Source of the DNA: Verrucomicrobiia bacterium
GTDB lineage: Bacteria > Verrucomicrobiota > Verrucomicrobiia > Limisphaerales > JADLHS01
NCBI GenBank assembly: GCA_011525685.1
Contig: WYBW01000022.1
Coordinates: 1 to 64,000, forward strand
Reading direction: 5' to 3'
DNA: 64,000 nucleotides
Part shown: positions 2,972-63,438 of the stretch, piece by piece
How the letters are laid out: each line of letters opens with the position of its first letter
Position numbering within the stretch: the first letter of the stretch is position 1
Notes under the pieces: generated by a model
What the model was told of the DNA's origin: nothing
Seen by the model: the letters and a program-made list of their open reading frames with translations, nothing else
Databases searched by the model: none
Program-made: the position numbers and the translations under genes

Positions 2972-2992
2972 GCAGTTCAACATCGCCACGAT

Positions 2993-23291: not shown

Positions 23292-23318
23292 TTCGCCCAC
23301 CCGACGTGATCGTTTCGC

Positions 23319-40442: not shown

Positions 40443-40446
40443 GATG

Positions 40447-41514: not shown

Positions 41515-41538
41515 AGACGGGACGATTTGAGTGTTGGC

Positions 41539-42336: not shown

Positions 42337-42352
42337 GGTGTGTTTCCTTTCG

Positions 42353-42781: not shown

Positions 42782-42786
42782 AAGCG

Positions 42787-45522
42787 TTAATGGGGGTTGG
42801 ATTCTCTTTCCGTCTGGCGATTGGCGTGATGGATGATGCCCTCGACGATGCTCTTGCTCTGGCGAAGCTCGCGGGCGCGACGGTCGAAATGTTCGCCGCT
42901 CGACGAGCTGCAATAGAGCATTTCCGCTGACGAGACGTTGTGGACCGTGCCGCACATATTCCGAGTGGCGTCGGTGTGCAGGTAAGTGAATGGCGAATAC
43001 TTCTGGCCAGTCTGGTGGTCGGGCAGCGGGTAGTTCATAATCGCGTGCTGCGTCACTTCGGGCAGCGCGATGTCTTTGCCCATGTCGTCGAGGTCGGCGC
43101 GGTCGTTCTGCCGCATGATGAAGAACTGGCGCGAGTTGCCGAACACGGCCGAGCGGATGCGCGACTGTTTGAAGCGCGCATACTGCTGCACGATGGAAAT
43201 GTTCCAGCAATTGAACTTGCGAAGCTGCGCGTAGGACTCCTGGACAATTTCCTGTCCGCCAGGGATGTCGAGAAAGCGGGCGACTTCCTCATAGACGTTC
43301 CGCTTCCGAATCGCGCGCGGCAACGTCATGATGTGCTTGCGGGCGTGGTTCGTGATGAGAAAACCTGCGGCGGCTTTCAATTCCTTCGCGGACTCCGGGA
43401 TGTAGCCCAGCTCGAAATGCGCGATCTTTCCGGTGAGGGAAAGATTGCTCGTGCCGTCGAACAGGCAGCCGTAGTTACCATCGCGACACCACGGAAGGAT
43501 GAGCGTTGCAATTTCCATGATTTGGTCGCGCTCCGCGCCCATCGGGTCGAGCATCATCAACTCTTGCAGCATCCGGTGTGTCGGGAATTCCTCGGGCGCG
43601 AAGTGCGCGAAGGCCAAGTTGCGGACTTCCTTGCTGGTCTTGGGTTCTTTGAGGAACTTCAACGCGGCGGCTTCGTCGAACAGGCGCTGATAGCTCTCGG
43701 CCTCGTCGGGGTGGCTCGCCTTCCAGTCGCGGAAGTCCGCAAAAGTTTCAAGCGTGGTTGCGCCGGGCGGCATCCGCTCGGCACGGAATTGCTGCAACGC
43801 CAGCGCGTGACGCGCGATGTCGAGCAACTGGTCGTGGCGCTTCTTCTGCCAGTCCTGAAACGCATCTTCGTAAAGCAGATTGAGGTATTTGGCGATCTGC
43901 GCCTGCCGGAGCATCTGTTTGTCCTCCTGCGCCGAAGTTCCAATCATCCGCGCCACGAGCGCGGTCGCCGCTGACAAATGATCCGGCGTGAGCGGCAGTC
44001 CTTTTGTGTCGAGGTAATTGATGGTCAGGTCGCCATCCGGGTGGATGATGATGGGCCGCGCGCCCTCCTCGACCGTCGCGGTGTAAATGCCGTAGCTCAA
44101 ACCTTCCTCAATGATGACGGTGTAACCGAAGTAACCTTCGGTCTGCGTCAGGAGGTCGCAGACGGTGACAGACTTTCCTGCTCCCGACATGCCGAGCAAC
44201 ACGGCATGCTGCGGCGATTTGTTGTCGGTCGAGCCAGAGAAAGTTTCGATACCGACGAGGTTGTTGGCCGGGCCGTCATAAATCGCCTCCGCGCCGGCCA
44301 GATGGCCGGTGAACGTGCTTATGACCGGCAGCATGTCGGCGAGAAAACGGTGTTCCGAGTAAAGCTTGCGGTGTTCGTAACGTCCCCATGTCCAGCCCGG
44401 CCACGTTTGGAAAAATATATTCTTCGATGTGCTCGGCAGATTGCTCTCGAAATACTGTGCCGCGTTCATGGAGTTAATCGCGTTCTTGATCGCGCCCGCC
44501 TTGGCGTTCAGGCCGTCGCGGGTTTTGTCCCAAACACGGATCGCGAACATCGCGTGAAACGGAATCGTCTGTCCCTGCATGAGCGCATGAATCTTCTTCT
44601 GCTTCTTCTCCATCACGGTCAGCAGCGAGATTTTCTTTTCACTCGCGTAGTCGCCCGCGATGCGGTCGTGCTCCTTTTCCTCCTTGTTGATTTCCTGGGT
44701 GATGGGGAGCGGGTCAACATTCACCGTGATGGTGTAGTCCAGGAGGCGGAGATTGGTGAGGCGCTGGATGATTCCTGGATAAGTTGTGCGCGGCCAGCGA
44801 GTGAGAACGATGAGCGAATGATAATGTCCGTCGAGGAAGAAACCGAAATCACTTTGGCCGCTGCCCTCGCTGTGCCAGCAATTCTCCTGAATCGAAAGTT
44901 CCGAAGCGAAGCCGTCTGCCGGGTCGTAATCAAATCGGTCGTTGAGCGACGGATTGAGAAACCGTTTGTAGTGGCGGAAATGGTCGAGGTCGGACATGGG
45001 CAGGATTCGCGCCCCGCCCGAACCGAAGATTTCCAGCAACAGCCGGTGGACGTGCTCGAACTCGGTTTCGAGCTGATCGAGCAACGTGCTGTAATAATTG
45101 CGGCGCGCGGCAACCGATTGGAAAGCCTTCGGCACGTTCTCCAACGAGCGCGAGATGTAAAAGATGACACGTTGCCGCCGAAGTTTGCGTTCGGACATGG
45201 CCTGCCAGTAGCGCGAAAATCGTTCGTTGCGAGCGCGCTTCGTCCAGACGTTGGAAAACTTCTCCGTCTCCTGTTGGTAGCGCAGTAATTCCCCCCTGTA
45301 ATCGGAATCGCAGAAGTATTGCACTTGCAGCCGTTGGTGTTCGTGGAGAGACGCCAGCAGGAGACAGAGTTGATCCTGGAAGTCATTCAGGTCGGCGACG
45401 GGGCTGTTCGTGAGGTCCGGTGCTTCAAAGATGAAACCTTTCGACACGTAGCCGCCTCGCCGGAGATGATTGAACACAATCAAATCGCGGCAGAAAAATC
45501 CGTTGGGAATCGGTTCGGGCAT
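42787..45522 (-). CDS. trbE: TrbE/VirB4-family conjugation ATPase
   Basis: 911 residues, the usual length for TraC/VirB4 ATPases. An N-terminal ~400-residue domain precedes a HerA/FtsK-type ATPase. Walker A is GMSGAGKS at 444-451, Walker B-like RKRNVYEEVARFLDI lies near 750, and a Q/R-rich coupling region (NCWNISIVQQYARFKQSR) follows. It powers pilus assembly and substrate transfer at the inner membrane. In this operon it is the only hexameric ATPase of the machine; no VirB11/TrbB or VirD4/TraG homologue is visible. It begins 3 bases before the stop of the upstream 94-residue gene. Confidence 0.9.
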   Translation of the reverse strand: MPEPIPNGFFCRDLIVFNHLRRGGYVSKGFIFEAPDLTNSPVADLNDFQDQLCLLLASLHEHQRLQVQYFCDSDYRGELLRYQQETEKFSNVWTKRARNERFSRYWQAMSERKLRRQRVIFYISRSLENVPKAFQSVAARRNYYSTLLDQLETEFEHVHRLLLEIFGSGGARILPMSDLDHFRHYKRFLNPSLNDRFDYDPADGFASELSIQENCWHSEGSGQSDFGFFLDGHYHSLIVLTRWPRTTYPGIIQRLTNLRLLDYTITVNVDPLPITQEINKEEKEHDRIAGDYASEKKISLLTVMEKKQKKIHALMQGQTIPFHAMFAIRVWDKTRDGLNAKAGAIKNAINSMNAAQYFESNLPSTSKNIFFQTWPGWTWGRYEHRKLYSEHRFLADMLPVISTFTGHLAGAEAIYDGPANNLVGIETFSGSTDNKSPQHAVLLGMSGAGKSVTVCDLLTQTEGYFGYTVIIEEGLSYGIYTATVEEGARPIIIHPDGDLTINYLDTKGLPLTPDHLSAATALVARMIGTSAQEDKQMLRQAQIAKYLNLLYEDAFQDWQKKRHDQLLDIARHALALQQFRAERMPPGATTLETFADFRDWKASHPDEAESYQRLFDEAAALKFLKEPKTSKEVRNLAFAHFAPEEFPTHRMLQELMMLDPMGAERDQIMEIATLILPWCRDGNYGCLFDGTSNLSLTGKIAHFELGYIPESAKELKAAAGFLITNHARKHIMTLPRAIRKRNVYEEVARFLDIPGGQEIVQESYAQLRKFNCWNISIVQQYARFKQSRIRSAVFGNSRQFFIMRQNDRADLDDMGKDIALPEVTQHAIMNYPLPDHQTGQKYSPFTYLHTDATRNMCGTVHNVSSAEMLYCSSSSGEHFDRRARELRQSKSIVEGIIHHANRQTERESNPH

Positions 45523-45525
45523 AGG

Positions 45526-45810
45526 TCAGACGCGCTGGGAATGGTGCTGCCGCCGTTTGCAATCGTCCGTCACTTGGGCGATGCGGTTCAGGTCGTCAAC
45601 GAGTTGGTGAACCGACCGGGCGTTCTTGGGCTCGGTGAGAGCGATGTAGGATTCGGCGATGTGCGCCAGAGCGCGTTCCATGTGCGCGCGTGACGTGCAG
45701 CCGAAGCCGTGTGTGTGCATCCCGGCACGCAGGGCGGATTCGGCGGCCTTCAATTGGCCGAGCAAGCCTTGCAACTGACTTTCAATGGCATTGTGTTCGT
45801 TGGCACTCAT
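45526..45810 (-). CDS. Small operon protein between trbD and trbE
   Basis: 94 residues from ATG 45810, overlapping the trbD stop by four bases (ATGA), so it is translationally coupled. No signal peptide. It is mostly helical: NAIESQLQGLLGQLKAAESALRAGMHTHGF, then HMERALAHIAESYIALTEPKNARSVHQLVDDLNRIAQ, with a His/Lys/Arg tail. No family recognised. A cytoplasmic partner of TrbE is possible from position. Confidence 0.72.
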   Translation of the reverse strand: MSANEHNAIESQLQGLLGQLKAAESALRAGMHTHGFGCTSRAHMERALAHIAESYIALTEPKNARSVHQLVDDLNRIAQVTDDCKRRQHHSQRV

Positions 45811-46154
45811 CGTTGGTCCTCCAATAGCGGATGGCGGAAGCTGCGTGTGGCCTGAACCTCCGGGGCAAAACCGCTCCCGGAAGTCCAATACTCGAAGATG
45901 TCGCGGTCGTAGCCGGGTGGCTTCCCCTGTCGCAGTCCGAAGATGTAGGCGAGGCAGAGCGCCACCGGCACGAGCGCGATGCCAAACGAAGTCAGCAGCG
46001 ACGAATTGAGCATGACGAGAAAGACGAAGAACACCGTGATGCCCGCACCGACACCGCCCACGAGCCACCAGAACAAACCACCCTCCAAGCCCCATGTCCG
46101 GCCTTTGGAGTCGGAGGCGGCGTTGGTGTCGGTGAGGCGAAGGTCTGTTTTCAT
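45807..46154 (-). CDS. trbD: TrbD/VirB3-like inner-membrane protein
   Basis: 115 residues. Two close membrane helices (GGLFWWLVGGVGAGITVFFVFLVML, SLLTSFGIALVPVALCLAYIFGL) followed by GKPPGYDRDIFEYW, the VirB3/TrbD layout (hairpin plus the G-R/K-P-x-x-Y-D motif). VirB3 assembles with VirB4. It lies between trbC and the small gene that overlaps trbE. The N-terminus is longer and more polar than usual. Confidence 0.72.
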   Translation of the reverse strand: MKTDLRLTDTNAASDSKGRTWGLEGGLFWWLVGGVGAGITVFFVFLVMLNSSLLTSFGIALVPVALCLAYIFGLRQGKPPGYDRDIFEYWTSGSGFAPEVQATRSFRHPLLEDQR

Positions 46155-46207
46155 AGTGGCTCGGGGCGGTAGGTGGCGGGATGGGTGGCTTGTTCTTGCC
46201 GGCGAGA

Positions 46208-46561
46208 TCAGAAGTTGCCGACGCCGACGCTGCTGTTCGCGTCAAGGCCGAAGATTTTGTAGAATGCAAAGATGACCGCCGGTGCAGCCGCGATGATCGC
46301 GCCACCGATGATGGACATCTTGCCCTGGTCAACGTCGCCGCGCCGGATGGCAAAGCCGCCGTAAATGACGCACGAAATGCCGAGGACAAAACCAAACATC
46401 ATAATCACGGCGAGGCTGTTGCTGATGCCGGTCTTGAGTTCGGTGGAGTTGAACGCCTGTCCGAAGGCAGAGACGGTATTGAGGGCCAGGATAACGGCAA
46501 TCGTGAGGAGCGACGGCAGCCGGGAGCGAACTTTGGTTGCGATTTTCTTTGTGAGCTTCAT
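46208..46561 (-). CDS. trbC: TrbC/VirB2-like conjugative pilin
   Basis: 117 residues from ATG 46561, the second possible start (an upstream one at 46612 precedes a Lys-rich non-pilin stretch). A long signal peptide (RSRLPSLLTIAVILALNTVSAFGQ) is followed by two hydrophobic segments, SLAVIMMFGFVLGISCVIYGGFAI and MSIIGGAIIAAAPAVIFAFYKIFG, the two-helix pilin layout of VirB2/TrbC. It is the first gene of the operon. The 132-base gap to the divergent AAA+ gene must hold the promoters of both; GTAT-N3-ATAC near 46650 is a short inverted repeat there. Confidence 0.8.
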   Translation of the reverse strand: MKLTKKIATKVRSRLPSLLTIAVILALNTVSAFGQAFNSTELKTGISNSLAVIMMFGFVLGISCVIYGGFAIRRGDVDQGKMSIIGGAIIAAAPAVIFAFYKIFGLDANSSVGVGNF

Positions 46562-46693
46562 AGCGTTGATGTTTTTGTTTTTCTTTCCGTCAGCGGCTTT
46601 TCCGCCGAACACGCGGTCACAATCTCACAAGCGCGGGGAGCGAAGATGTATGTGATACACAAAATGCGACGAAGTCCTTGCTATGGGTAAGGG

Positions 46694-47602
46694 ATGGACA
46701 AAACAACAGACTCAACGAAGCTCACCAAACTCCACGAACTAACCTCACTGTTGCCGCGCGAAATCCGCGGCCAGTCCCACGCATTGCCGCGAATTACTTC
46801 TGCGGTGCGGCGCGGCGAACTCGGACTCACCAAGCCCGGACGCCCGCGCGGGAGTTTTCTCTTGCTCGGTCCAACAGGCGTCGGGAAAACAGAATCAGTC
46901 GTGGTGACAACGAATCAAATCTTCGGCGCAGGAAAACTGTTTCGCTTCGACATGAGCGAATTTCAGAATCAGGAAGCGCTGGGCCTGCTGCTTGGGGCGC
47001 GGCTTGGGGAAGTCGGCTATCTCGGTGGCGTGCGGGATCGCGCGGCGGAAGGCTCGCTGCTCTTTGACGAAGCGGAGAAGGCGCATCCGCGCGTGCTGGA
47101 CATCTTGCTGCAACTGCTTGACGCGGCGCGGATCACTGTCGCGACCGGGCAAACGCTCGACTTTAGCGGCTATTACATTTGGCTCACGTCAAACATCGGT
47201 TCGGCGGAATTGATGAGCCTGCAACACTCGAACGATACGACGCTGGAGCGGCACGTCCTCACGCGGGCACAACAAACTCTGCGCCCAGAAATCTTCGCGC
47301 GCGTCAATGAGAAGCTCGTGTTTCACCGCTTGAGCTACGAACACCAGTTGGAGATTGCGGAGAAATTCCTATCGCGTGAAATCGAGTTCCTCGCCGCGCG
47401 CGGTCACAAACTGGAACTGGACAAGACAGCGCTGCCGTTTCTCGTGCGGAAAGGATTTCACCCGAAACTCGGCGCTCGTCCGATGCGCGACGCCGTGGAA
47501 AAACTCGTCGGCGACGCGGTCAGCGAATGTCTGCTCGATGGTCGCCCGGCGTGTGGCGTTCTCGCGCAATGCGAGTTGCGCGACTGCCTGACGATTCTCT
47601 GA
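46694..47602 (+). CDS. Stand-alone Clp-D2-like AAA+ ATPase, divergent from the conjugation operon
   Basis: 302 residues, about one AAA+ module plus small domain. Motifs: Walker A GPTGVGKT (59-66), Walker B LLFDEAEKAH (122-131), sensor 1 WLTSNIG, and the C-terminal LGARPMRDAVEKLV of ClpA/B D2-small domains. It lacks the Clp N-domain, first AAA+ domain and middle domain. The pore-loop position that reads GYVG in ClpA/B reads GEVG here, so the substrate-threading Tyr is missing. It starts 132 bases from trbC in the opposite direction. It could be a motor for the element's transfer or regulation, or an unrelated chaperone-like module. The former is inference. Confidence 0.85.
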   Translation: MDKTTDSTKLTKLHELTSLLPREIRGQSHALPRITSAVRRGELGLTKPGRPRGSFLLLGPTGVGKTESVVVTTNQIFGAGKLFRFDMSEFQNQEALGLLLGARLGEVGYLGGVRDRAAEGSLLFDEAEKAHPRVLDILLQLLDAARITVATGQTLDFSGYYIWLTSNIGSAELMSLQHSNDTTLERHVLTRAQQTLRPEIFARVNEKLVFHRLSYEHQLEIAEKFLSREIEFLAARGHKLELDKTALPFLVRKGFHPKLGARPMRDAVEKLVGDAVSECLLDGRPACGVLAQCELRDCLTIL

Positions 47603-47603
47603 A

Positions 47604-48458
47604 TCACGCGAGCGAAAGATACAAATGGCGCTCACCAATATCCACGTCGGGCTGCACCGCGCCGAGCTTGCGTGTCCGCAGTTGCGCGCAAACTTTGCGA
47701 ATGGTTCTTCGCTTCGCCGCGCTCTTGGGAAGTTGAACGAGCAGGCAATCCGCGAATTGATCGCGGGTTTTATTGCGGTAGATGTCGGGCACGATCACTT
47801 CGACCGCGCCAGCTTCGTAGAGTGCCCCGACAAATTTGGCGGCGTCACTTTCGCGTTTGAATCGTCCGAGCGAGCGAGCGGTTTTGTCGTCGGTTTTCTT
47901 CACCAGCCACTTTCGCGCTTCGCGTTGATTACCCTTCTCCAAGAGCGAATCCACAAAGACGCGGTGGATGTGAAGCGGCTTCACGATGGGCTTTGCGGGC
48001 TTGCCGCGAAATTTCGGCAGGGCTTTGAACTTCGCCGCCACCTCGCGATACTTCTCGGCACTGACTACGTGACCGACGAGGTAATACCGCTCCGAAAGCA
48101 AAGTCCCGTCGCGCAGCCAGATTCGGTTGCGCCCGGAAAACTCGCCGCCGATAGACCAGATTTCCATCTGGAGTTTGCCGTTGTCGTGCCACTCGCGTTG
48201 GAGTCCCGTGCCTTGGAACATGACGTATTCGCCGAGCCGCCGGCCCGACTCGTTCCATTTGCGGCAGACGCCGTCGAGCAAACCGTTTTTGAAGGGTTCT
48301 TCCGAAGCGCGCTTGCCGTTCTTGTGCCAGGCCCGGACAACACCGTGCCTGCGACCATTGCGCACGGGCACTCGCTCTCGAAGCTGACCGTTACGATAAT
48401 ATGTTTTTTGGATGGTGGCGCTCACGACTCGCACATCCGCTGCTGCTTTGCTCCCCAC
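47604..48458 (-). CDS. MORN/YwqK-repeat protein
   Basis: 284 residues from GTG 48458 (start uncertain; other GTGs follow). The N-terminal ~110 residues hold about four MORN-type repeats (TYYRNGQLRERVPVRNGRRHGVVRAWHKNGKRASEEPF), the YwqK pattern. The C-terminal half is basic and unlike known domains (ALPKFRGKPAKPIVKPLHIHR; LLVQLPKSAAKRRTIRKVCAQLRTRKLG). YwqK proteins are annotated as antitoxins in some genomes. No obvious toxin partner lies beside it. It is tail to tail with the AAA+ gene, with one base between stops. Confidence 0.75.
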   Translation of the reverse strand: MGSKAAADVRVVSATIQKTYYRNGQLRERVPVRNGRRHGVVRAWHKNGKRASEEPFKNGLLDGVCRKWNESGRRLGEYVMFQGTGLQREWHDNGKLQMEIWSIGGEFSGRNRIWLRDGTLLSERYYLVGHVVSAEKYREVAAKFKALPKFRGKPAKPIVKPLHIHRVFVDSLLEKGNQREARKWLVKKTDDKTARSLGRFKRESDAAKFVGALYEAGAVEVIVPDIYRNKTRDQFADCLLVQLPKSAAKRRTIRKVCAQLRTRKLGAVQPDVDIGERHLYLSLA

Positions 48459-49018: not shown

Positions 49019-50212
49019 ATGAGCAAACCGAGCTACAAACTAAAGACCGGCAAACCGACTCAGCACAAGCCCTCTGAATATGAGAAGGTCTTGTCCGGGG
49101 TGGTCGAACTGTTGGATGCCGCCCGGCGCGCATCCGCCCGCGTGGTCAATTCGCTGATGACGGCAACGTATTGGGAAATCGGTCGGCGGATTGTGGAGCA
49201 CGAGCAGGCAGGCAAAGAACGCGCCGCCTACGGCGCAGAACTGCTCATTCTCCTTTCGGCAGACCTCACGAAGCGGTTCGGTCGAGGATTCAGCGTGGAC
49301 AATTTGGAACGCGCCCGGAAATTTTTCCTCACTTTTACCTCCGCCAAGAAATCCGCAACGACGTTGCGGATTTCCGCCCCCGCTGGCCTCACGCCAATTT
49401 CCGCAACGGCGTTGCGGAAATCTGATGGTGGCGAAATGATCGAATGGCTGCGCGACATCGCGGCCCGGTTTCCTCTGCCGTGGTCGCACTACACCCGGCT
49501 GTTGCGGCTGCGGTCAACCTTTGCGGTTGAGTTTTACCACACTGAGGCCGTTCGTGGCGGCTGGACGGTGAAGCAACTCGAACGGCAGATGAACTCGCAG
49601 TTTTACGAACGCACCGCGTTGTCGCGGAACAAAGCCGGGATGCTGGTCAAAGGGCAGCGCCGATTGCCCGAAGACAAAGTTTCCGCCGATGAGGAAATTC
49701 GGAGTCCGTTCCTTTTGGAATTTCTCGGCTTGAAAGACGAATACTCCGAGAGCGATTTGGAAGAAGCGCTCATTCTGCATCTCGAAAAGTTTCTGTTGGA
49801 GTTGGGCAACGACTTTGCCTTCGTCGGACGGCAAAGGCGTCTGCGGATCGGCCACGAATGGTTTCGGGTGGACTTGCTGCTATTCCATCGGCGACTGCGC
49901 TGCCTCGTCATCATTGACCTCAAAATCGGGGCGTTGGTTCACGGCGACATTGGGCAGATGAATCTTTACTGCAACTACGCCCGCGCCCACTGGACGCAAC
50001 CGGACGAGCATCCGCCTGTGGGACTCATTCTTTGCACACAAAAGGATGAAGCGTTGGCACGTTACGCCCTGGACGGATTGCACAACAAGCTGTTGGTGCG
50101 CGAATATCTCACCACACTCCCGGCAGAATCGGAACTGGCGCGTGAAGTTTCTCGCGCTCGCGAAGTTCTCGTGCGTCAGGTCGAAGCACGCCGGATGGCC
50201 CGGAGAAAATAA
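49019..50212 (+). CDS. DUF1016/YhcG-family PDDEXK nuclease
   Basis: 397 residues. The N-terminal DUF1016 domain has ATYWEIGRRIVEHEQAGKERAAYG, LSADLTKRFGRGFSVDNLERARKFF and LPWSHYTRLLRL. The C-terminal PDDEXK domain has FAFVGRQRRLRIGHEWFRVDLLLFHRRLRCLVIIDLKIG, with the D-x-L-L-F and D-L-K active-site residues (here D..D-L-K, the E replaced by D as in many YhcG proteins). Between ~115 and ~140 there is a Ser/Thr/Ala-rich insertion made by two DNA palindromes; typical relatives run straight to the W-S-H motif. YhcG-type proteins are candidate DNA-acting nucleases near defence or TA loci. Target unknown. Confidence 0.85.
   Translation: MSKPSYKLKTGKPTQHKPSEYEKVLSGVVELLDAARRASARVVNSLMTATYWEIGRRIVEHEQAGKERAAYGAELLILLSADLTKRFGRGFSVDNLERARKFFLTFTSAKKSATTLRISAPAGLTPISATALRKSDGGEMIEWLRDIAARFPLPWSHYTRLLRLRSTFAVEFYHTEAVRGGWTVKQLERQMNSQFYERTALSRNKAGMLVKGQRRLPEDKVSADEEIRSPFLLEFLGLKDEYSESDLEEALILHLEKFLLELGNDFAFVGRQRRLRIGHEWFRVDLLLFHRRLRCLVIIDLKIGALVHGDIGQMNLYCNYARAHWTQPDEHPPVGLILCTQKDEALARYALDGLHNKLLVREYLTTLPAESELAREVSRAREVLVRQVEARRMARRK
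49348..49421 (+). repeat. Two palindromes inside the DUF1016 reading frame
   Basis: Palindrome 1 spans 49348-49374: a 13-bp stem around one central base. Palindrome 2 spans 49397-49421: a 12-bp stem around one base. Both share the core CCGCAACG-N-CGTTGCGG, their centres are 48 bases apart, and both keep the reading frame. They look like two diverged copies of one palindromic unit inserted in the gene. Confidence 0.85.
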
Positions 50213-50246
50213 CCGCTCCGTATTGAGTCATGTTCTCGAAAGCAAA

Positions 50247-51533
50247 ATGAAAGCCTTATCGGACAACTCAAATCTTCCGAGTAATTTCACGGCGCTTCGG
50301 TTTGTTTGCGGATGCTTCGGTATAGGGGAGAAAGAACTGGCAGAAACCTTGGAGCGAATGCGTCGAATCACGAAGAATCCAAACGAGCATTTCCCCAAGA
50401 AATTGTCACGCGAGCTGCTCGCGCGGGCAGAAAACGGAAAAGGCCGATGGCAGGAAGCCCTGTCAACGATTCACCGTGAGGCACTGTATGACCGGATGCG
50501 CAGGGAGAATGGCGACCCGCTGTTCTCATTCACTGGCAAATTCTCTCAGGAGACGACCTTTACCCTGTTGACGCTTTACGAACGGCTGCTTCCCAAACTC
50601 AATTGTAGCGATGTCCCGCTGGCTCAGACGATCTGGTTGCTGGTTGAAAATGTCTTTGCACCCACTGTGTTCATCAAAATGATTGAAGAATGGCGGCTTG
50701 GGTTGGGCACGGAATGGTTGGGCGAGAGTTGCTGGTATTTGCCCGCGAAATCGGATGGTGGAATTCAGAAACCAGTTTCGCGCGTCTTGGACTGCTGGCT
50801 GCGGGTTTCGGGATTCCGCACGGCTTACGGCGTCAGCCAGAGTCTGACTCGCGGGAAGCCCGACAAATCTGTTCTCGATGAGCAGACCGAAAAGCGCTGG
50901 AAGACTTGGAAGAAAAGTGTTGAAAGGTGGCGCAATGGCAAGTCAGTGCAGTCGGTTCAAAAACTGCATCGGCTGGTTGAAACATTTGCCAAAAATGTGG
51001 CCTGGCTGGATGAGCCGGATGGCTGGAAAGCGCGCTTCACTCTGGCATTTGCCGCGCAAAACCTGTGCGAAGCAATGGATGAGACTTTTGAATCCGCTTC
51101 CAAGCAGCCTTCGCTGGCTCTCGCGGGAATGCTTCGGCGTATCGCCGACGAGCACATTGTATGTGATGATGGCAAACGCCTCGCCGACCCGCATACTTTT
51201 TATGCGACTCGGCTGATTCAACGCCAAATGCGAGCGAACGGAGAATGGGACAAGATGGTCGGTCAGATTCCAAAATCAGCAGGTCGCACTTTCCCTCCTG
51301 AAGCGTCGGACGACGAGATCGCGCGATATAGAGATGCGATAAGCTGGCGAATGAATTCAGGGAACTGGCTTCTTGAGCACCTTGAACAAAAGGCTGTCGC
51401 TGCGGGACGATTGAAACCGGACGGCGCTTGTTGTGCCGATTACGTCGCATTGGATTCATACATATTTGATCTTGGCGTGTCGGAGTTGAACAAGCTCCTC
51501 GATTCCAAACGAAAAGAGGCCGGCAAGCGATAG
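50247..51533 (+). CDS. Hypothetical protein, 428 residues
   Basis: Starts at ATG 50247, 34 bases after the nuclease stop. The frame is open back to 50046 inside the nuclease gene, but that part is shadow. It is soluble, without signal or membrane segments. Visible stretches: IGEKELAETLERMRRITKNPNEHFPKKLSREL, TFTLLTLYERLLPKL, AQTIWLLVENVFAPTVFIKMIEEW, WYLPAKSDGGIQKPVSRVLDCWLR, LDEQTEKRWKTWKKSVERWRNG. No nucleotide-binding or nuclease motif is found. G+C is lower than in neighbours, which suggests separate acquisition. Co-transcription with the nuclease is likely, and a two-gene unit is possible. Confidence 0.7.
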   Translation: MKALSDNSNLPSNFTALRFVCGCFGIGEKELAETLERMRRITKNPNEHFPKKLSRELLARAENGKGRWQEALSTIHREALYDRMRRENGDPLFSFTGKFSQETTFTLLTLYERLLPKLNCSDVPLAQTIWLLVENVFAPTVFIKMIEEWRLGLGTEWLGESCWYLPAKSDGGIQKPVSRVLDCWLRVSGFRTAYGVSQSLTRGKPDKSVLDEQTEKRWKTWKKSVERWRNGKSVQSVQKLHRLVETFAKNVAWLDEPDGWKARFTLAFAAQNLCEAMDETFESASKQPSLALAGMLRRIADEHIVCDDGKRLADPHTFYATRLIQRQMRANGEWDKMVGQIPKSAGRTFPPEASDDEIARYRDAISWRMNSGNWLLEHLEQKAVAAGRLKPDGACCADYVALDSYIFDLGVSELNKLLDSKRKEAGKR

Positions 51534-51926: not shown

Positions 51927-52174
51927 GCTTCGGTCTGCGGTCGGCGAGCGGGGAAAGTGGAGCGGAGGGCGGAGGGTAGCGCCTAGCGAATCGCAGCCGT
52001 AGCGAAACGTCCCGCCGCCGAGCCGCAGACGGAAGCCCGCCGCTCTTGCGGCCCTGCACCCTGCAAGCTCGTGACGAGCGCGCGGGCTTGCGCAGCGGAG
52101 CGGGCGTCGTCGAGAGGGGGACGGGGCGACGGGCAGCCCGTGCAGGCGAAGCAAACCGCGCGTTGGTCACGGCG
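51927..52174 (+). repeat. Direct repeat copy 1 (~248 bases)
   Basis: G+C-rich block beginning GCTTCGGTCTGCGG and ending GCGCGTTGGTCACGGCG. A second copy (52672-52916) follows in the same orientation with about 85-90% identity by eye. The copies flank one small lipoprotein gene. It has no good reading frame. No canonical GTTRRRY core of integron attC sites is seen. Confidence 0.88.
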
Positions 52175-52286
52175 AGGCTCTGTTGGTCTAAAGTGCAAGC
52201 TTTGCGGTTTAACCCACAGTATGTAGCCTCCGAAATCACGATGCTGGTTGAAAGCGGTCGGATTCGGTTTGTATTCGATAGCTACG

Positions 52287-52649
52287 ATGCGTTTTGCATT
52301 TTCAATAATTTTAGTTCTTGGTTTAGTCGGCTGCTCGACCGAACAACGAGGCGACATCATTGACGTGCGTGAGTTTCCGTCTCCAGATGGCCGTTACGTT
52401 TGCGCGGTGTTTGGGGAGATTTTCTACAACACGACTGGTTACCCTCGGCACATTTGCCTGCGCCATACAGGTGAGAAACTTGGATACCCCGGTAATGTGT
52501 ATCTCGTGCCAGTTGGCGACGACGTAGTGGTGTCCTGGACATCACCCACTAATCTTTCAGTCAGGTTGAAGTTTGAAACCCGACGGGCAATTCCCGCTTC
52601 GACAAATGTCGCCGGTGTCGCGGTTACATTTTCCGAGACGACAAAATAG
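52287..52649 (+). CDS. Small lipoprotein between direct repeats
   Basis: 120 residues from ATG 52287 (an upstream in-frame start at 52248 would bury the signal). The signal RFAFSIILVLGLVGCSTEQ has a lipobox Cys at ~15. The mature part is beta-rich and has FPSPDGRYVCAVFGEIF, HICLRHTGEKLGYPGNVYLVPVGDDVVVSWTSPTNLSVRLKF. No family recognised. It is less G+C-rich than the repeats. The gene sits alone between two ~245-base direct repeats, as a gene in a cassette would. Confidence 0.68.
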   Translation: MRFAFSIILVLGLVGCSTEQRGDIIDVREFPSPDGRYVCAVFGEIFYNTTGYPRHICLRHTGEKLGYPGNVYLVPVGDDVVVSWTSPTNLSVRLKFETRRAIPASTNVAGVAVTFSETTK

Positions 52650-52671
52650 ACCATTTCTTGATCCGTTCTCA

Positions 52672-52916
52672 GCTTCGGTCTGCGGGCGGCGAGCGGGGAA
52701 AGTGGAGCGGCGAGCGGAGAGGAGCGTCTAGCGAATCGCAGCCGGAGCGCAACGTCCCGCCGCCGAGCCGCAGACGGAAGCCCGCCGCGCCTGCGGCCCT
52801 GCACCATGCAAGCTCGTGACGAGCGCGCGGTTTGCGGAGTGGAACGGGCGTCGTCGAGAGGGGAGGGGGCGACGGGCAGCCCGTGCAGCGAAGCAAACCG
52901 CGCGTTGGTCACGGCG
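52672..52916 (+). repeat. Direct repeat copy 2 (~245 bases), ending at the methyltransferase stop codon
   Basis: Same element as 51927-52174, from GCTTCGGTCTGCGG to GGTCACGGCG. Its last base lies directly against the stop codon (52917-52919) of the minus-strand methyltransferase gene. The spacing between copies is about 745 bases. Confidence 0.88.
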
Positions 52917-53513
52917 TCAGCGTCGCGTCCATTCTTGCCAGCGTTCTTTTCCGGCAAAGACGGGCAGAGAATCGGTCACGGGTTCGTCATGAGTGAGAAT
53001 GAAGTCCCGCCCGAATAATTCATCGGCCTGCGCCTTGATCAGCGGATAAGGCGGTGGTTCGGATTCCTCCCCGTAGAGAAAAAAGCCGATGAGTTTTCCA
53101 CCGTGACGAATCAACTGGCGCATCCGCGCCGCGTAGTCCGGCCACAACTTTGGTGGGAGCGCGCACAGGAACGTGCGCTCGTAAACCACATCGAAAGAAG
53201 ATTCGTTAAGGGAGTGCTGAAAGAAATCTCCGCACACAACCAACTCGCCAAGCGGTCCAAGAAGCTTTTTGGCGCGATCCACCGCGACGGGAGAAAAATC
53301 AATTGCGGCGATTGACCAGCCCGCCGCGTGAAACGCCGCTACTTCGTAGGCCGAACCGCAGCCGGGAATCAGTGCGTGTCCCGGCTTAGTCCGCAAAAGA
53401 TAGGTCTTTAGTTTATCCGGGACATCGTGGCAATCCCACGGCATCCTTCCTTCGGTGAAGCGGGCATCCCAAAACTGTGGTTGTGACGAATCAGTTGCAC
53501 TGTCTATGTTCAT
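52917..53513 (-). CDS. TPMT-family SAM-dependent methyltransferase
   Basis: 198 residues from ATG 53513 (a TTG at 53525 is less likely). FWDARFTEGRMPWD is the thiopurine-methyltransferase family start. ALIPGCGSAYEVAAFHAAGWSIAAIDFSP is the SAM-binding motif I/II, VYERTFLCALPP the motif III region, and LIRHGGKLIGFFLYG follows. Bacterial TPMT-family enzymes methylate thiols, halides, selenium or tellurium compounds. Here it lies 27 bases after the stop of a Zn/Cd-type P-ATPase gene on the same strand, so a metalloid-detoxification role is reasonable (inference). Confidence 0.85.
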   Translation of the reverse strand: MNIDSATDSSQPQFWDARFTEGRMPWDCHDVPDKLKTYLLRTKPGHALIPGCGSAYEVAAFHAAGWSIAAIDFSPVAVDRAKKLLGPLGELVVCGDFFQHSLNESSFDVVYERTFLCALPPKLWPDYAARMRQLIRHGGKLIGFFLYGEESEPPPYPLIKAQADELFGRDFILTHDEPVTDSLPVFAGKERWQEWTRR

Positions 53514-53540
53514 CGCTTGAAGCAACAGGATGTCTCGTTC

Positions 53541-55751
53541 TCAAGTCCGAAGCAATCGCAACGCATTGGCGATGACAACGAGCGTCGCGCCTGTGTCCGC
53601 GAGAATCGCCAGCCAGAGACTTGCGTGGCCGGAGAGCGCGAGCAGGAGGAAGATGGCTTTCACAATCAACGCGAAGGCGATGTTCGTTTGGATGATGCGG
53701 ACGGTGCGTCGGCCAAGCTGGACAGCTTCGGCAACCTTGCTCAAATCGTCCTGCATGAGCGCGATGTCCGCCGTCTCAATCGCCGTGTCCGTGCCCGCGC
53801 CGCCCATTGCGATACCGATGCTGGCGGCCGCCATTGCGGGCGCGTCATTTACACCGTCGCCGATCATGCCGACGTGCTTGTGCTGGGCGAGCAGTTCGCG
53901 GACTCGCTCAATCTTCTGGTCCGGCAGCAAATCGCCTTTCGCTTCATCAATGCCGACCTGTTTGGAAATCGCGTCCACCGTCCGTTGATTGTCGCCGCTC
54001 AACATGACGACTTTTTCGACTCCGGCGGCGTGAAGGGCTTTAATGGCTTCGGCGGCATTGGGGCGAACCGTGTCGGCGATCGCGAGGATGCCCAACACTT
54101 CGCCTTGGCAGTCTTCGTGCGGTTTGTGGCCGACGATGACCACGGACATCGCCTGGGCTTCCAGTTCGCCCAGTTTCTTTTCAAGTTCATCCGAGCAGAC
54201 AGCGGATTCGTGCGCGAAACGGTGATTGCCGACGAAATACAAATGTCCGTCAATTTGCGCCTCCGCGCCCCGTCCGGTTTTGGACTGATAATTCTCGCTG
54301 CGCGGGAATTGAATCTTCTTATCCTCCGCATACTTCACGACGGCCTGCGCAAGGGGGTGTTCCGAGTGGGTGTCAATCGCGGCGGCGACGCGCAGGATTT
54401 CTTCTTCGGATTTGCCGTTCCACGGAATCACCTGCTGGACGCGGGGTTTTCCTTCGGTGATCGTGCCGGTCTTGTCCACGGCTAGGGCTTTCAATCTCCC
54501 GATTTCTTCGAGAAACACGCCGCCTTTGATGAGCACGCCGCGCCGCGCCATTGCGGTCAGTCCAGAAACAATTGAAACCGGCGTGGAAATAACCAGCGCG
54601 CACGGACAGGCGATGACAAGCAACACGAGCGCGCGATATGTCCACTCCATCCATGCGCCATTAAAAAGCAATGGGCCAGACAACAGGACGAGAATGGCGA
54701 CGACGAAAACCGTCGGTGTATAAACCTTTGCGAAACGATCCACGAAGCGTTGCGAAGGCGCTTTCTGTCCCTGTGCTTCACCGACGAGTTTGATGATTTT
54801 TGCCAGCGTGGTGTCCGTGTGGGATTTGGTGACCTTCACTTCAAGCGAGCCTTCGCCGTTGATTGTTCCGGCAAACACGGTGTCGCCCGACTTCTTTTCC
54901 ACCGGCATGGACTCTCCGGTGATGGGCGCTTGGTTGATGGCTGACTCGCCAGAAGTAACAGCCCCGTCCAGCGGCACGCGCGCTCCCGATTTGATGACGA
55001 GGGTTTCATCCACTTTGACTTCTTCCACCCGGACTTCCTGAACCTGGTCGCCGCGTTTCACGAGCGCGGTGTCGGGCGTAAGTTCCAGCAGCGATTGAAT
55101 GGCACGCCGGGCGCGGGCCACGCTGAAACCTTCCAGCAATTCAGACAGGGCAAACAGAAACACGACTGCCGCGCCTTCGGTCCATTCACCAATGGCTGCC
55201 GCGCCGATGACGGCCACGCTCATCAGCACATTCATATCGAGCGAGAAATGGCGGAGCGCGCGAAGGGCCTTTGGGAAAATCAACCAGCCTCCGGCAACGA
55301 TGGCGATGGTTGCGGCCACGGCTTTCCCATACGGCGGGAAAAGATTCTGCCATTGGAACAGAAAGGAGATGCCCGCGCAGATGCCGGAGACAATTACGGA
55401 GGCGAGTTGCACCCGGCGCGAACCGTCGCTGTGTTCGTCGTCGGCTTCATCGTCACTCTGCAGTGAAGCCTTGAGCCCGGCTGTGCCGATGGCTTGAATC
55501 AATCGTTCCGGCGTGACGCGCTTGTCGTGCCCAATCGTTGCTGTGCCCGCCATGAGGTTGACTCTGATTTCGTCAATTCCCTCGATCGGTTTGAGCATGC
55601 GCTCAATCGCGGCGATTTCATCCGGGCAATCCATCCCGGCTACCTTGAGGATGGTTCGCGCGCCGGAATGCACTTCGCGATTCATGCCAGATTTGTTTTC
55701 CGCCGCCCGGGCATGGGAGTTACACCCGCAATGTTTGCAGTCTTCACTCAT
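53541..55751 (-). CDS. Heavy-metal P-type ATPase, Zn/Cd/Pb type (ZntA/CadA-like)
   Basis: 736 residues. A Cys/His-rich N-terminus (CKHCGCNSHARA) and a heavy-metal-associated domain with VAGMDCPDEIAAIERML precede eight membrane helices. The transport motif is ACPCALVISTPVSIVSG, phosphorylation site DKTGTITEGKP, later GDGVNDAPAMAAASIGIAMG. The HMA motif (GMDC) and the CPC-A-L-V-I-S context fit ZntA/CadA exporters of Zn, Cd or Pb rather than the copper type. It pumps metal from cytoplasm to periplasm, where the RND pump can take over. It overlaps the upstream small membrane gene by 8 bases. Confidence 0.93.
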   Translation of the reverse strand: MSEDCKHCGCNSHARAAENKSGMNREVHSGARTILKVAGMDCPDEIAAIERMLKPIEGIDEIRVNLMAGTATIGHDKRVTPERLIQAIGTAGLKASLQSDDEADDEHSDGSRRVQLASVIVSGICAGISFLFQWQNLFPPYGKAVAATIAIVAGGWLIFPKALRALRHFSLDMNVLMSVAVIGAAAIGEWTEGAAVVFLFALSELLEGFSVARARRAIQSLLELTPDTALVKRGDQVQEVRVEEVKVDETLVIKSGARVPLDGAVTSGESAINQAPITGESMPVEKKSGDTVFAGTINGEGSLEVKVTKSHTDTTLAKIIKLVGEAQGQKAPSQRFVDRFAKVYTPTVFVVAILVLLSGPLLFNGAWMEWTYRALVLLVIACPCALVISTPVSIVSGLTAMARRGVLIKGGVFLEEIGRLKALAVDKTGTITEGKPRVQQVIPWNGKSEEEILRVAAAIDTHSEHPLAQAVVKYAEDKKIQFPRSENYQSKTGRGAEAQIDGHLYFVGNHRFAHESAVCSDELEKKLGELEAQAMSVVIVGHKPHEDCQGEVLGILAIADTVRPNAAEAIKALHAAGVEKVVMLSGDNQRTVDAISKQVGIDEAKGDLLPDQKIERVRELLAQHKHVGMIGDGVNDAPAMAAASIGIAMGGAGTDTAIETADIALMQDDLSKVAEAVQLGRRTVRIIQTNIAFALIVKAIFLLLALSGHASLWLAILADTGATLVVIANALRLLRT

Positions 55752-56022
55752 GATTGGTCAGCGCGCCCGCGCGTTGGGGTTCGGGTATTGAAACGGGAGC
55801 GGCGGGCGAATTCGTTTGCGCCCGCTGATGTCGGCGATGTGGTTTCGTCAAACGCGGATAGGCGTAGAAAACGAAATACGCCCCCCAAGTTATGAGCATG
55901 AGCAGAATCACGCCAACCAGTATCAGCCGGTTCTTGCGCTTCTCTTTGCGAAGCCTCTCGGCCTCTTTGGCAGCGCGCTCTGCTTGTTTGGCGGCAGCTT
56001 GCGGTAACTTCCATCGGCTCAT
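55744..56022 (-). CDS. Small membrane protein of the metal operon
   Basis: 92 residues. The N-terminal basic, Ala/Lys/Glu-rich helix (QAAAKQAERAAKEAERLRKEKRKNR) is followed by one membrane segment (LILVGVILLMLITWGAYFVFY, ~32-53) and a Pro/Arg-rich tail. Its stop lies inside the first codons of the P-ATPase gene (8-base overlap), so the two are coupled. No family recognised. A structural partner or anchor of the P-ATPase is possible. Confidence 0.75.
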   Translation of the reverse strand: MSRWKLPQAAAKQAERAAKEAERLRKEKRKNRLILVGVILLMLITWGAYFVFYAYPRLTKPHRRHQRAQTNSPAAPVSIPEPQRAGALTNHE

Positions 56023-56073
56023 GAGGCGCGGACATTTTCAACCTGACATTGGGTTTCTGAGAAAATGGACCGG

Positions 56074-56382
56074 CTACTGGTGCGTGTCCCGTTCCCCCGT
56101 GCGAATCTTCACGGTTTCCTCGACGGGAATCACAAAGATGCGACCATCGCCGGGGTTGCCGGTGTGGGCGGCCTTTTGAATGGCTTGAACGACCGATTCC
56201 ACCAACTCATCCGTCACCATGATTTCGAGTTTGGTTTTCACCACTTGATCGAAACTCCCGCGTTCCACGGAGAGACCGTGCGCAGGCGAGATGGTGACGG
56301 CAGGCAAGCCTTTGATCTCGCGTAAGGCTTCGACGACGGCCTCCAGCTTGAACGGTTTGATAATGGCTTTGATTTCTTTCAT
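56074..56382 (-). CDS. PII-family protein with shortened T-loop
   Basis: 102 residues from ATG 56382, with AAGGAG upstream. It begins MKEIKAIIKPFKLEAVVEAL, the GlnB/GlnK family start, and ends AAHTGNPGDGRIFVIPVEETVKIRTGE, the B-loop and C-terminus. Between them the segment SPAHGLSVERGSFDQVVKTKLEIMV replaces the ~20-residue T-loop with its uridylylation Tyr (typically RGAEYxxDF), which is absent. It therefore cannot be uridylylated in the usual way. It lies 18 bases after the RND pump gene in a metal-export operon, so it may bind ATP/ADP or metal and control the pump (inference). Confidence 0.88.
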   Translation of the reverse strand: MKEIKAIIKPFKLEAVVEALREIKGLPAVTISPAHGLSVERGSFDQVVKTKLEIMVTDELVESVVQAIQKAAHTGNPGDGRIFVIPVEETVKIRTGERDTHQ

Positions 56383-56400
56383 GGATTCTCCTTTTTCTGG

Positions 56401-59400
56401 TTAAACCTCCACTTCGGTGCGCTCCCTGCGGCGGAACGTCGTATAAAGCGTGGGCAGCACGAGCAGTGTCAGGAGCGTGTTGCTAACGATGCCCCCAATG
56501 ACAACCGTTGCCAGAGGCCGTTGCACCTCTGCCCCGACGCCGGTGTTGATCGCCATTGGGATAAATCCCACAGCGGCGACCAACGCTGTCATGAGCACGG
56601 GCCGGAGTCGGACCTGGCAGCCTTCACGCACCGCCTCCTCCAACGGCGCTCCGGCGGCAAGCCGCTGTTTGATGAAGGTGACGAGAACCAGCCCGTTGAG
56701 GATCGCGACGCCGCTTAACGCGATGAAGCCGATGCCAGCGCTGACGGTGAGGGGCATCCACCGCAAGGCCAACGCCGCGACTCCGCCCACCGCGCCCAGC
56801 GGAATGCCCGTGGCAACGATGAACACGTCTCGCACCGATCCGAGGCTCATGTAGAGCAGGATGAAAATCAACCCGAGTGCCATCGGGACGATAATCATGA
56901 GGCGGCGGTTGGCCCGTTCCATGTTCTCGAACTGACCGCCCCATTCGACGGTGTAGCCTTCGGGCAGCTTGACCTGCCCGGCGATCTTCTTTTTCGCCTC
57001 GTCCACGAAGCTGGCGACGTCGCGCCCGCGCGTGTTGCATTGCACGGTGATTCGCCGCCGACTCCATTCGCGTTGAATCGTGGATGGTCCTTCGGTTTGC
57101 GTGAGCCGCGTTACCTGATCCATTCGCACGACCGGTCCGGCGACGGTGGGAATCAACGTCGCGGCCAGAACCTCCGGGTCGGTTCGCTGTGCGTCGGGCA
57201 AGCGCACCGCCAAAGGAAACCGACGCTGGCCTTCGCGAATCTCTCCGACTTTCCGGCCGCCGACCGCCTCGACCATGTTTAACACGTCACGGGTCGGCAT
57301 CCCGTAGCGAGCGATGGCATCCGCGTCCACTTTCACCTGCAACACAGGCTGCCCGGAGATTTGTTCGCCGGAGATTTCGCCCGCCCCGCGAATGTCTTTG
57401 AGCACTTTCTGAACTTCGTCTGAAAGTTGCCGCAGCGTTTCAAGGTCGTCGCCGTAAATCTTGATGCCGATGTCGGAGCGAATGCCGGCAATCATTTCGT
57501 TCAACCGCATTTCGATGGGCTGAGTCAGCACGGCGTTAATGCCGGGAGTGTCCTTCACCACTTTTTCGATTTGGGCGGCGAGTTGCTGCTGCGTGCGCGC
57601 CCGCTTCCATTGTTCGCGCGGTTTGAGCGTCAAGAAAATGTCGGTCAACTCGATGCCCATCGGGTCGGTCGCGACTTCGGCTGTGCCGAGCCGACTCCAC
57701 GCCCGCTCGACTTCGTTTGGGAAATTCTCCAGAATGAGTCGTTCCAGACGTGTGTTTGATGCCGCCGCCTCATCCACATAAACCCCGGCGAGACGGATGA
57801 CGTTCACGACGAGAGTGCCTTCGCTCAACTTGGGCAGGAACTCTCCACCCATGCGCAGAGCGATAACCAGCGCGATGGCGACCAGCACCACCGCACCGAC
57901 CAGTGTGCCCCGGCGGAATCGGAACGCGAGATTCAGGACGGGCGTGTAAAGCCGATGGGCCAGTCGCACGATCCACGGTTCTTCTTCCTTGATGCTCTTG
58001 GGCAACGCCATGCTCGCCAGCACCGGCACGACGGTCAGCGAAAGAATCAGCGAGCCGAGCAACGCGAATATCATCGTCAGCGCCATCGGGCGGAACAGTT
58101 TTCCTTCGATGCCTTCCAGCGTGAGAATGGGCAGGAAGACGATCATGATGATGCCCACTCCGAATGCCACGGGACGCGCCACCTCCAACGATGCGCTGAC
58201 GAGGGTTTTCTCGCGCTCCTGTCCGCTCAACGGTCGGCCCAGCTTGTGTTGGTCATGGGCGAGGCGACGAATGCTGTTCTCGACCATCACCACCGCGCCG
58301 TCCACGATGATGCCAAAGTCAATCGCTCCGAGACTGAGCAGGCTGGCAGCGATACCAGCCTGAAGCATCAAATCTCCCGCGAAGAGCATCGAGAGCGGAA
58401 TCGCCAGAGCGACGATGAGTCCGGCCCGCAGGTTGCCGAGGAAAAGGAACAGAATAACGATGACCAACAGCGCGCCCGCCAACAAATTGTGCTCCACCGT
58501 GCGAATGACCTTGTCCACGAGGTCGGTGCGCTCGTAAAGAATCTCCACGCGCACATCCTCCGGCAGTGACTTCTGAACTTCGGCCAGTCGCGCCGCCAGA
58601 TTCCGGGTCACGACATGGCTGTTCTCGCCCATCAGCATGAAGCCCAGCCCCAGCACCCGCTCGCCCTTGCCGTCTGCTGACACCGCGCCTCGTCGGATTT
58701 CGTGGTCAATCTGAACGCGCCCGACATCATGCACGCGGACGGGCGTGCCGTCGTGCGTGGCCACAACGATGTTTCCGATTTCCTTGATGGTTGTGGTCAG
58801 GCCGAGGCCATGCACGAGCATCGCATCGCCGCTCACGACCACCTGGCCGCCGCCGACGTTGCGGTTGTTCGCTTCCAACGCCTCGAAAACATCCTGGAAC
58901 GTGAGGCCATACTTGATGATTCGTTCCGGTTCGACGACGACGTGAAACTGCTTCTCGAAACCGCCCCAGGAGTTCACTTCCGCGACGCCGGGGACTTTAC
59001 GCAACTCCGGCTTGATGACCCAATCGTGCAGCTCGCGCAGTTCGGTGAGCGTGCGGTTGGTGTTGTCGGTGGTGACGAGATAGTGAAAGACTTCGCCCAG
59101 CCCGGTCGCAATCGGCCCAAGCTGCGGGCGGGCGATGCCCTCGGGCAGCTCGACGCCCGACAGCCGTTCACTCACAAGCTGGCGCGCGAGATAGATGCCC
59201 GTGGAATCGGCGAAGGTGGCGACGACTTGTGAAAAGCCGAACTTCGACACCGAGCGGACGTTCTGGAGGCCCGGCAGCCCGCTGATCGCCAATTCCACCG
59301 ACAGCGTAATCTGCTGCTCGATCTCCAACGGGTTTAGTGAGGGAGCGACGGTGTTGATTTGCACCTGCACCGGCGTCGTGTCCGGGAACGCATCAATGGG

Positions 59401-59502
59401 GAGACGGCTCATGGCCGCGATTCCCAAACCCACGAGCACCGCCGAGAGCAGGCAAATGAGCAGCCGGTTACGCAACGAGAATTGAATGATCGAGTTCAGC
59501 AT
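56401..59502 (-). CDS. czcA: Heavy-metal efflux RND pump (CzcA type)
   Basis: 1033 residues, the full length of HME-RND pumps. It carries two large periplasmic loops and twelve membrane helices. The TM4 proton-relay motif reads AIDFGIIVDGAVVMVENSIRRL: the D-F-G-x-x-V-D-G form with two Asp and one Glu belongs to CzcA-type pumps for Zn, Co, Cd or Ni, not the copper CusA form. Other family segments are FPDTTPVQVQINTVAPSLNPLEIEQQIT and GYTVEWGGQFENMERANRRL. It lies between the adaptor gene and the PII gene. It would export divalent cations from periplasm or cytoplasm through the outer-membrane channel. Confidence 0.93.
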   Translation of the reverse strand: MLNSIIQFSLRNRLLICLLSAVLVGLGIAAMSRLPIDAFPDTTPVQVQINTVAPSLNPLEIEQQITLSVELAISGLPGLQNVRSVSKFGFSQVVATFADSTGIYLARQLVSERLSGVELPEGIARPQLGPIATGLGEVFHYLVTTDNTNRTLTELRELHDWVIKPELRKVPGVAEVNSWGGFEKQFHVVVEPERIIKYGLTFQDVFEALEANNRNVGGGQVVVSGDAMLVHGLGLTTTIKEIGNIVVATHDGTPVRVHDVGRVQIDHEIRRGAVSADGKGERVLGLGFMLMGENSHVVTRNLAARLAEVQKSLPEDVRVEILYERTDLVDKVIRTVEHNLLAGALLVIVILFLFLGNLRAGLIVALAIPLSMLFAGDLMLQAGIAASLLSLGAIDFGIIVDGAVVMVENSIRRLAHDQHKLGRPLSGQEREKTLVSASLEVARPVAFGVGIIMIVFLPILTLEGIEGKLFRPMALTMIFALLGSLILSLTVVPVLASMALPKSIKEEEPWIVRLAHRLYTPVLNLAFRFRRGTLVGAVVLVAIALVIALRMGGEFLPKLSEGTLVVNVIRLAGVYVDEAAASNTRLERLILENFPNEVERAWSRLGTAEVATDPMGIELTDIFLTLKPREQWKRARTQQQLAAQIEKVVKDTPGINAVLTQPIEMRLNEMIAGIRSDIGIKIYGDDLETLRQLSDEVQKVLKDIRGAGEISGEQISGQPVLQVKVDADAIARYGMPTRDVLNMVEAVGGRKVGEIREGQRRFPLAVRLPDAQRTDPEVLAATLIPTVAGPVVRMDQVTRLTQTEGPSTIQREWSRRRITVQCNTRGRDVASFVDEAKKKIAGQVKLPEGYTVEWGGQFENMERANRRLMIIVPMALGLIFILLYMSLGSVRDVFIVATGIPLGAVGGVAALALRWMPLTVSAGIGFIALSGVAILNGLVLVTFIKQRLAAGAPLEEAVREGCQVRLRPVLMTALVAAVGFIPMAINTGVGAEVQRPLATVVIGGIVSNTLLTLLVLPTLYTTFRRRERTEVEV

Positions 59503-59523
59503 GGGAAAGAAATGACGCCGTGG

Positions 59524-61107: not shown

Positions 61108-61110
61108 AGG

Positions 61111-61491
61111 TCACTTCGCCTTATCGGCTGGCTTTTTCTTGAGTTCGGGATGGCAGATGAAGCACTCGTCTTCGTAGAGTGAGTGCTCCTTGCAGAACAG
61201 GCGCTTCTTGTCCTGGGCCTCGGGGTGACAGACCCAGCAACGGTCTTCGTAGCGTTCATGCTCCTTGCACCAGAGGCGACCTTTCTCCCGCAGTTTCGGA
61301 TCGCAAATGAAGCATTGGTCCTTCGCGATTTTATGCGGCTTGCATACCTCCGCTTTGGCGTCGGGCTTCTTCTTGTCGCCATCCTTGTCCTGGGCGACGA
61401 GTGTTTGGGTGACCGCGAATGCGAGCAGCATTACGAAGAACAGCGATGCGTAGTTTTGACGAACGGTTTTCATTATTGTGGTGTGTTTCAT
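61111..61491 (-). CDS. Small periplasmic Cys/His-module protein, paralogue of the adaptor N-terminus
   Basis: 126 residues (an internal ATG at 61473 is an alternative start). A signal peptide (SLFFVMLLAFAVTQTLVAQD) and a Lys/Asp-rich spacer are followed by three C-K-x-H...C-x2-C modules (starts near 50, 75, 100). The first has lost the final His (CFICDP). Protein and DNA of modules 1-3 closely match those at 53-117 of the adjacent adaptor, so one arose from the other. It lies 3 bases before the adaptor gene. A periplasmic metal buffer or chaperone is the likely role (inference). Confidence 0.8.
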   Translation of the reverse strand: MKHTTIMKTVRQNYASLFFVMLLAFAVTQTLVAQDKDGDKKKPDAKAEVCKPHKIAKDQCFICDPKLREKGRLWCKEHERYEDRCWVCHPEAQDKKRLFCKEHSLYEDECFICHPELKKKPADKAK

Positions 61492-61496
61492 GTGGT

Positions 61497-62056: not shown

Positions 62057-62067
62057 GGCATTTCCTT

Positions 62068-63366: not shown

Positions 63367-63438
63367 AAACATTCTCAAACCGAATCAACCAAATGGGAAA
63401 ACAAACGCGGTGTGCGGACACACCACGACTAGGAAGGC

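Follow-up and report, generated by a model that had tools for sequence, protein, structure and literature searches.

Several described systems each resemble part of the arrangement reported here. Integrons hold cassettes in directional arrays, with the recombination site, attC, set against the stop codon; attC folds as an imperfect hairpin with a conserved stem base, and this hairpin is also taken as an insertion target by group II introns (for a review of introns that target attC, see PMC7923331). Cargo hotspots of integrative conjugative elements (ICEs) and cis-mobilizable elements flanked by att sites (CIMEs) have direct repeats enclosing variable cargo within conjugative elements, and in defence islands of mobile elements (P4/P2 hotspots; PMC9122126) complete defence systems turn over at a fixed locus. 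IS200/IS605-derived MITEs (PATEs) and REP/RAYT are palindromic non-coding repeats with no target duplication and with single-strand polarity. Little is understood of how conjugative elements come to carry defence systems and other cargo. Here we report a hitherto undescribed family of DNA repeats that fold into hairpins (we found no description of it in the open literature, which does not prove its absence elsewhere); in uncultured bacteria, direct copies of these repeats delimit blocks of anti-phage and resistance genes inside ICEs, always the same way round.

The family is represented by a pair of copies in the window (by which we mean the whole analysed stretch of 64,000 nucleotides from a Verrucomicrobiia bacterium; Table 1). 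The original prediction, made from the sequence alone, had described two direct repeats flanking one lipoprotein gene, the second of them ending exactly at a stop codon, and both observations are correct: the copies have the same orientation and are 92% identical, and copy 2 touches the stop codon of a methyltransferase gene. The stop of the lipoprotein gene lies 22 bp from copy 2. The repeat is read most easily on the minus strand, as 5'-CGCCGTGACCAAC...GCAGACCGAAGC-3', and the pair sits precisely where the conjugation module meets a block of metal-resistance-type genes. We also noted, within the nearby DUF1016 gene, a 24-bp inverted repeat (88% complementary) around TCCGCAACG (window 49347-49423).

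Table 1. Repeat pair, neighbouring genes and ICE genes in the window (window coordinates)
Feature	Position	Strand	Remarks
tRNA-Cys, left attachment site of ICE	21406-21480	+	
Tyrosine integrase of ICE	21695-22771	+	
Type IV secretion genes of ICE	37818-46612	-	TrbI 37818-38900, TrbL-like, VirB4/TraG-like 42787-45522, VirB2/TrbC-like 46208-46612
ClpB-like AAA ATPase	46694-47602	+	ICE core marker
MORN-repeat protein	47604-48458	-	conserved ICE gene; adjoins repeat in many relatives
YhcG/DUF1016 PDDEXK nuclease	49019-50212	+	often adjoins repeats in related ICEs
ORF, backbone side of copy 1	50046-51533	+	without Pfam match; gene caller start 50358
Repeat copy 1 (248 bp)	51927-52174	-	hairpin B 51927-52036, linker with small hairpin C, hairpin A 52067-52174
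Lipoprotein-like gene, sole ORF between copies	52293-52649	+	MRFAFSIILVLGLVGC
Repeat copy 2 (245 bp)	52672-52916	-	hairpin B 52672-52781, linker, hairpin A 52812-52916; 5' edge abuts TGA stop codon
TPMT-type methyltransferase gene	52917-53525	-	TGA stop codon touches copy 2
Metal-resistance type cargo (P-type ATPase, RND pump genes), far side of repeat pair	53541-63372	-	assigned by reading the sequence

The window contains the left end of an ICE of about 188 kb at tRNA-Cys (G000:C176 21406-209544), a context that the original prediction had missed. An integrase at the tRNA, type IV secretion, a relaxase, a coupling protein and a second att copy are all present (TraD, ParA and a TrwC-type relaxase at 194-203 kb of the contig, and a 36-bp copy of the tRNA-Cys 3' end, 86% identical, at contig 209509-209544). 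A third copy of the repeat lies at 114655-114896 of the same contig, and all three copies fall within the ICE. The att site of this element is the tRNA 3' end, and the repeat was therefore rejected as the ICE att site. The same ICE carries several metal-efflux RND systems and, at 115-130 kb, a DruE-like helicase region.

The ~246-bp element was matched in 49 of 320 Limisphaerales (Verrucomicrobiota) genomes, most or all of the sample being metagenome-assembled; many matches are full length, at 74-94% identity, and single genomes hold up to 18 copies (G050; 13 in G204). Outside the order, a 388-genome sample of the phylum yielded only short, chance-level matches. When one genome per species was scanned with a pattern, the matches were in Verrucomicrobiota only, and in Limisphaerales wherever the title is precise (one matching record is titled merely 'bacterium'); plasmid and phage records held no relatives of the repeat, the exact pattern was absent from viral contigs, and no Rfam family matched the repeat near threshold. 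Some copies stand at contig ends, indicating that assembly breaks at the repeat. In a profile over all copies both edges are sharp and the DNA beyond them is unrelated. Of 56 copies, 51 have C at position -1 and 47 have a pyrimidine at -2; no target-site duplication is visible at the copies. Separately, a 90-bp piece of hairpin A is inserted in frame in a protein-coding gene (L032:5484-5574).

Folding, which the original prediction had proposed as a check, gave two large hairpins and one small one. Across 58 aligned copies the element consists of two hairpins, A (~105 nt) and B (~108 nt), joined by a variable linker that carries the small hairpin C; both large stems finish at the element ends or within two or three bases of them. 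Covariation supports this fold: over 46 pairs in the 58-copy alignment, 91.7% of cells pair, 25 of the 46 pairs change on both sides, and 100 cells carry double changes, versus 17.8 in shuffles and 20-35 in slid controls (because related copies share changes, these are not counts of independent events). The observed level was reached by no shuffle in any of five covariation measures, and by this covariation the repeat is, as attC is, a folded imperfect hairpin under selection. Mismatches of the G-T and A-C types in the stems are not skewed to an RNA strand (37 versus 79, with 71 versus 117 expected), and among non-Watson-Crick cells G-T is not favoured on one strand beyond the column make-up. 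DNA hairpins thus fit better than RNA, and an RNA function of the repeat was rejected.

The repeat occurs mostly within one ICE family: 26 genomes have both the repeat and the AAA marker of the ICE, 23 the repeat only, 10 the marker only and 261 neither (Fisher p = 6e-17). Its polarity relative to the conjugation genes is identical in all 30 distinct loci where an ICE gene accompanies a repeat (the repeat shares its strand with TrbC, MORN, VirB4, TraD and ParA and lies opposite to the AAA gene and the relaxase), as is also seen with the relaxase, TraD and ParA in the window's ICE, and neighbouring copies on a contig are co-oriented in 34 of 34 cases (32 of 32 without two intron-split copies). 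Because several loci share one ancestral position, these counts are not all independent, and the fixed polarity may partly be inheritance of the same ancestral copies. The two intron-split copies carry group II introns at the same point within hairpin A (L046, G036:C51, ~2315-4549; L057, G223:C66, 3654-5885) and differ in their outer flanks. By our reading, domain V of these introns has an apparent AGC triad, so they are probably not IIC, and we rejected a group IIC-attC assignment.

Placement of the copies favours gene 3' ends (gene calls, from a home-made caller, are approximate). Of 42 upstream genes on the same strand, 18 have their stop no more than 60 bp from the 5' edge, some of them using a TGA inside the element as stop codon, and none of 19 opposite-strand upstream genes starts within that distance. 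Around the other edge, the 60-bp zone takes in the 3' ends of 8 of 25 opposite-strand genes and the starts of 3 of 34 same-strand ones. One gene, encoding a protein of ~160 amino acids, recurs together with the repeat in four genomes, behind unrelated genes or operons. This conserved gene is the last before the repeat in L041, L048, L045 and L099.

We recorded the genes lying between copies, as the original prediction had recommended. The blocks can be tens of kb long, carry genes on either strand and in many cases are whole defence operons that stop at a repeat: SngABC (Shango) lies between copies at 13677 and 19741 of G050:C556, GajAB (Gabija) between copies at 46952 and 51986 of G204:C48, and a JetC-like (Wadjet-like) four-gene operon between copies of G025; DrmBC (DISARM-like) ends 2 bp ahead of a copy in G001, AbiE genes are cargo in G050, G204 and G216, and DruE-like helicases are found beside copies both in G005 and in the ICE of the window. 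PADLOC matches at 1e-10 or below were obtained for 25 of 40 cargo proteins versus none of the 10 chromosomal proteins taken from the window, the cargo proteins being hand-picked rather than random and generic helicase matches being counted.

Copies have flanks in common on one side only. The locus G005:C672 has an upstream block, one repeat and the ICE core, and in G204:C48 both of these outer flanks (84% identity) are parted by 19 kb of repeat-bounded cargo, the last repeat of which retains only part of hairpin B. Pairs of copies that share the upstream side are alike in A, pairs that share the downstream side are alike in B, and the linkage between A and B is r = 0.26, versus 0.54 and 0.86 within the domains (values that come from few pairs, set against high background identity). 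Since A and B separate, travel of the whole repeat with its upstream gene, in the manner of attC, was rejected. The directional repeats, the one-sided sharing, the 19-kb locus pair and the tracking of A and B indicate together that the element behaves as a cargo-exchange joint.

We consider it probable, on balance, that this dispersed structured repeat of Limisphaerales ICEs is the exchange joint of cargo cassettes. Each copy would contribute its hairpins A and B, with direct copies bounding the cargo (a lipoprotein gene here, whole defence operons elsewhere). A circle or donor ICE with one copy would recombine with a resident copy, after which the cargo would lie between two direct copies with the polarity of the resident one; recombination between those copies would take the cargo out, and recombination between copies generally would insert, delete and swap blocks, leaving hybrid repeats with the A half of the upstream block and the B half of the downstream block. 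Exchange at a resident copy would explain the direct repeats, the constant polarity, the sharp edges, the one-sided sharing and the hybrid copies. Host homologous recombination is a sufficient default, and plain homologous recombination between repeats in ICEs would suffice to give the same patterns; the conserved hairpins and the abutment on stop codons hint at something more specific. We infer that the repeat is used for recombination regularly, not just where homology occasionally allows it, and that recognition acts on single-stranded, folded hairpins, as might happen while the DNA is being transferred by conjugation.

More tentatively, the repeats might belong to a cassette system other than integrons, in which a recombinase would recognise the folded single-stranded double hairpin, probably on the strand transferred by conjugation, and join blocks at the A-B boundary, thereby assembling anti-phage defence arrays in ICEs. 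The search for a linked recombinase, another check suggested at the outset, found none consistently linked: no recombinase gene recurs across repeat arrays, and integron integrases occur only on contigs other than those of the repeats and are absent from 24 of the 49 repeat genomes, which counts against an exchange joint, as does the size and two-strand make-up of the blocks, unlike integron cassettes. ICE integrases lie just upstream of some copies, and a Xer-like tyrosine recombinase gene (L036:6404-7318, G050:C247) lies between a full and a B-only repeat. The suggestion in the original prediction of an unknown cassette-type element or repeat-mediated capture therefore stands in part: the directional arrays, one-sided module sharing, filled-versus-empty locus pair, repeat-bounded cargo and a flanked gene that is an integron cassette elsewhere speak for it, whereas the linked recombinase was not found and homologous recombination gives the same patterns.

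The main rival to the exchange joint is a non-autonomous element, the 246-bp unit of which would, folded as single-stranded DNA, insert into the transferred ICE strand beside gene 3' ends, with a transposase supplied in trans (IS200/IS605-like or RAYT-like), the cassette look being a by-product. Sharp ends lacking a visible target-site duplication, hairpins at both ends, fixed polarity and the base preferences at -1 and -2 are what such an element might leave, and Y1 transposase genes do occur in the window's genome; however, we found neither an autonomous, transposase-bearing version with the repeat's ends nor a precise empty site for a single repeat (only the pair of multi-repeat filled and single-repeat loci was seen), the A and B domains assort independently, and hairpins of ~100 nt are far larger than those of IS605 or REP; we rate this reading as rather unlikely. 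Lower still, and in our view improbable, is a passive structured element (a bidirectional terminator or a single-strand origin or regulator) that selection maintains between cargo operons and that owes its spread to ICE recombination alone: such a role does not require sharp unrelated flanks and many copies per ICE, there is no T-tract, and the stem mismatches lack RNA-strand skew, although the strong covariation, the preference for gene 3' ends and the fixed polarity are compatible with it.

An integron attC cluster without integrase (CALIN) is very improbable, despite the cassette-like order and the presence of an integron integrase in 101 of 320 genomes of the order. As originally claimed, the GTTRRRY core is lacking (the RYYYAAC/GTTRRRY pair stands at the ends of 0 of 58 copies, on either strand) and no integron integrase was found near the window repeats. 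A scan for attC picked up three sites around the cassettes of G053, but the window and four further ICE contigs with repeats had none; the missing boxes and the empty scan refute the repeat as an attC. What also favours a CALIN is the cargo itself, since the window lipoprotein has a 46%-identical (amino acid) relative in G053 (L169/L171; G053:C6, ~23061-23402) that is a cassette between canonical attC sites, ~1.4 kb from an integron integrase, so a cassette gene of the integron pool sits between hairpin repeats here. A closer relative (78%, amino acid) in G131 has ACCTAAC...GTTAGGT boxes just before the gene (read by eye, and not flagged by the attC scan with its stricter L-box rule), and DNA similarity between the window and G131 is confined to the lipoprotein gene, with dissimilar flanks. 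Simple local duplication, the outcome that the original prediction had tied to a repeat found only here, would suit two close copies at one place and is refuted by the third copy in the same ICE and the copies in 48 other genomes, leaving it essentially no probability.

A structured repeat at defence-operon edges, with fixed polarity and exchangeable halves, offers a concrete and searchable marker of cargo loading; the repeat can be tested as a possible second cassette system alongside integrons, and the genes between copies could be mined for new defence systems. With integrons it shares the directional arrays, the position against a stop codon, the folded imperfect hairpin with a conserved stem base, the use of that hairpin by group II introns and the lipoprotein gene as cargo, but it is a 246-bp repeat with two large hairpins and no RYYYAAC/GTTRRRY boxes, has no linked IntI and bounds multi-gene blocks on both strands inside ICEs. 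It resembles PATEs and REP/RAYT in the traits given at the start and differs in its much larger hairpins, the lack of a linked transposase and the independence of A and B. Unlike the att site of an ICE, which is a tRNA 3' end, the repeat is internal, multi-copy and structured; P4/P2-type defence islands likewise turn over complete systems at one fixed locus, and what sets the present case apart is a conserved structured repeat at the edges of every block.
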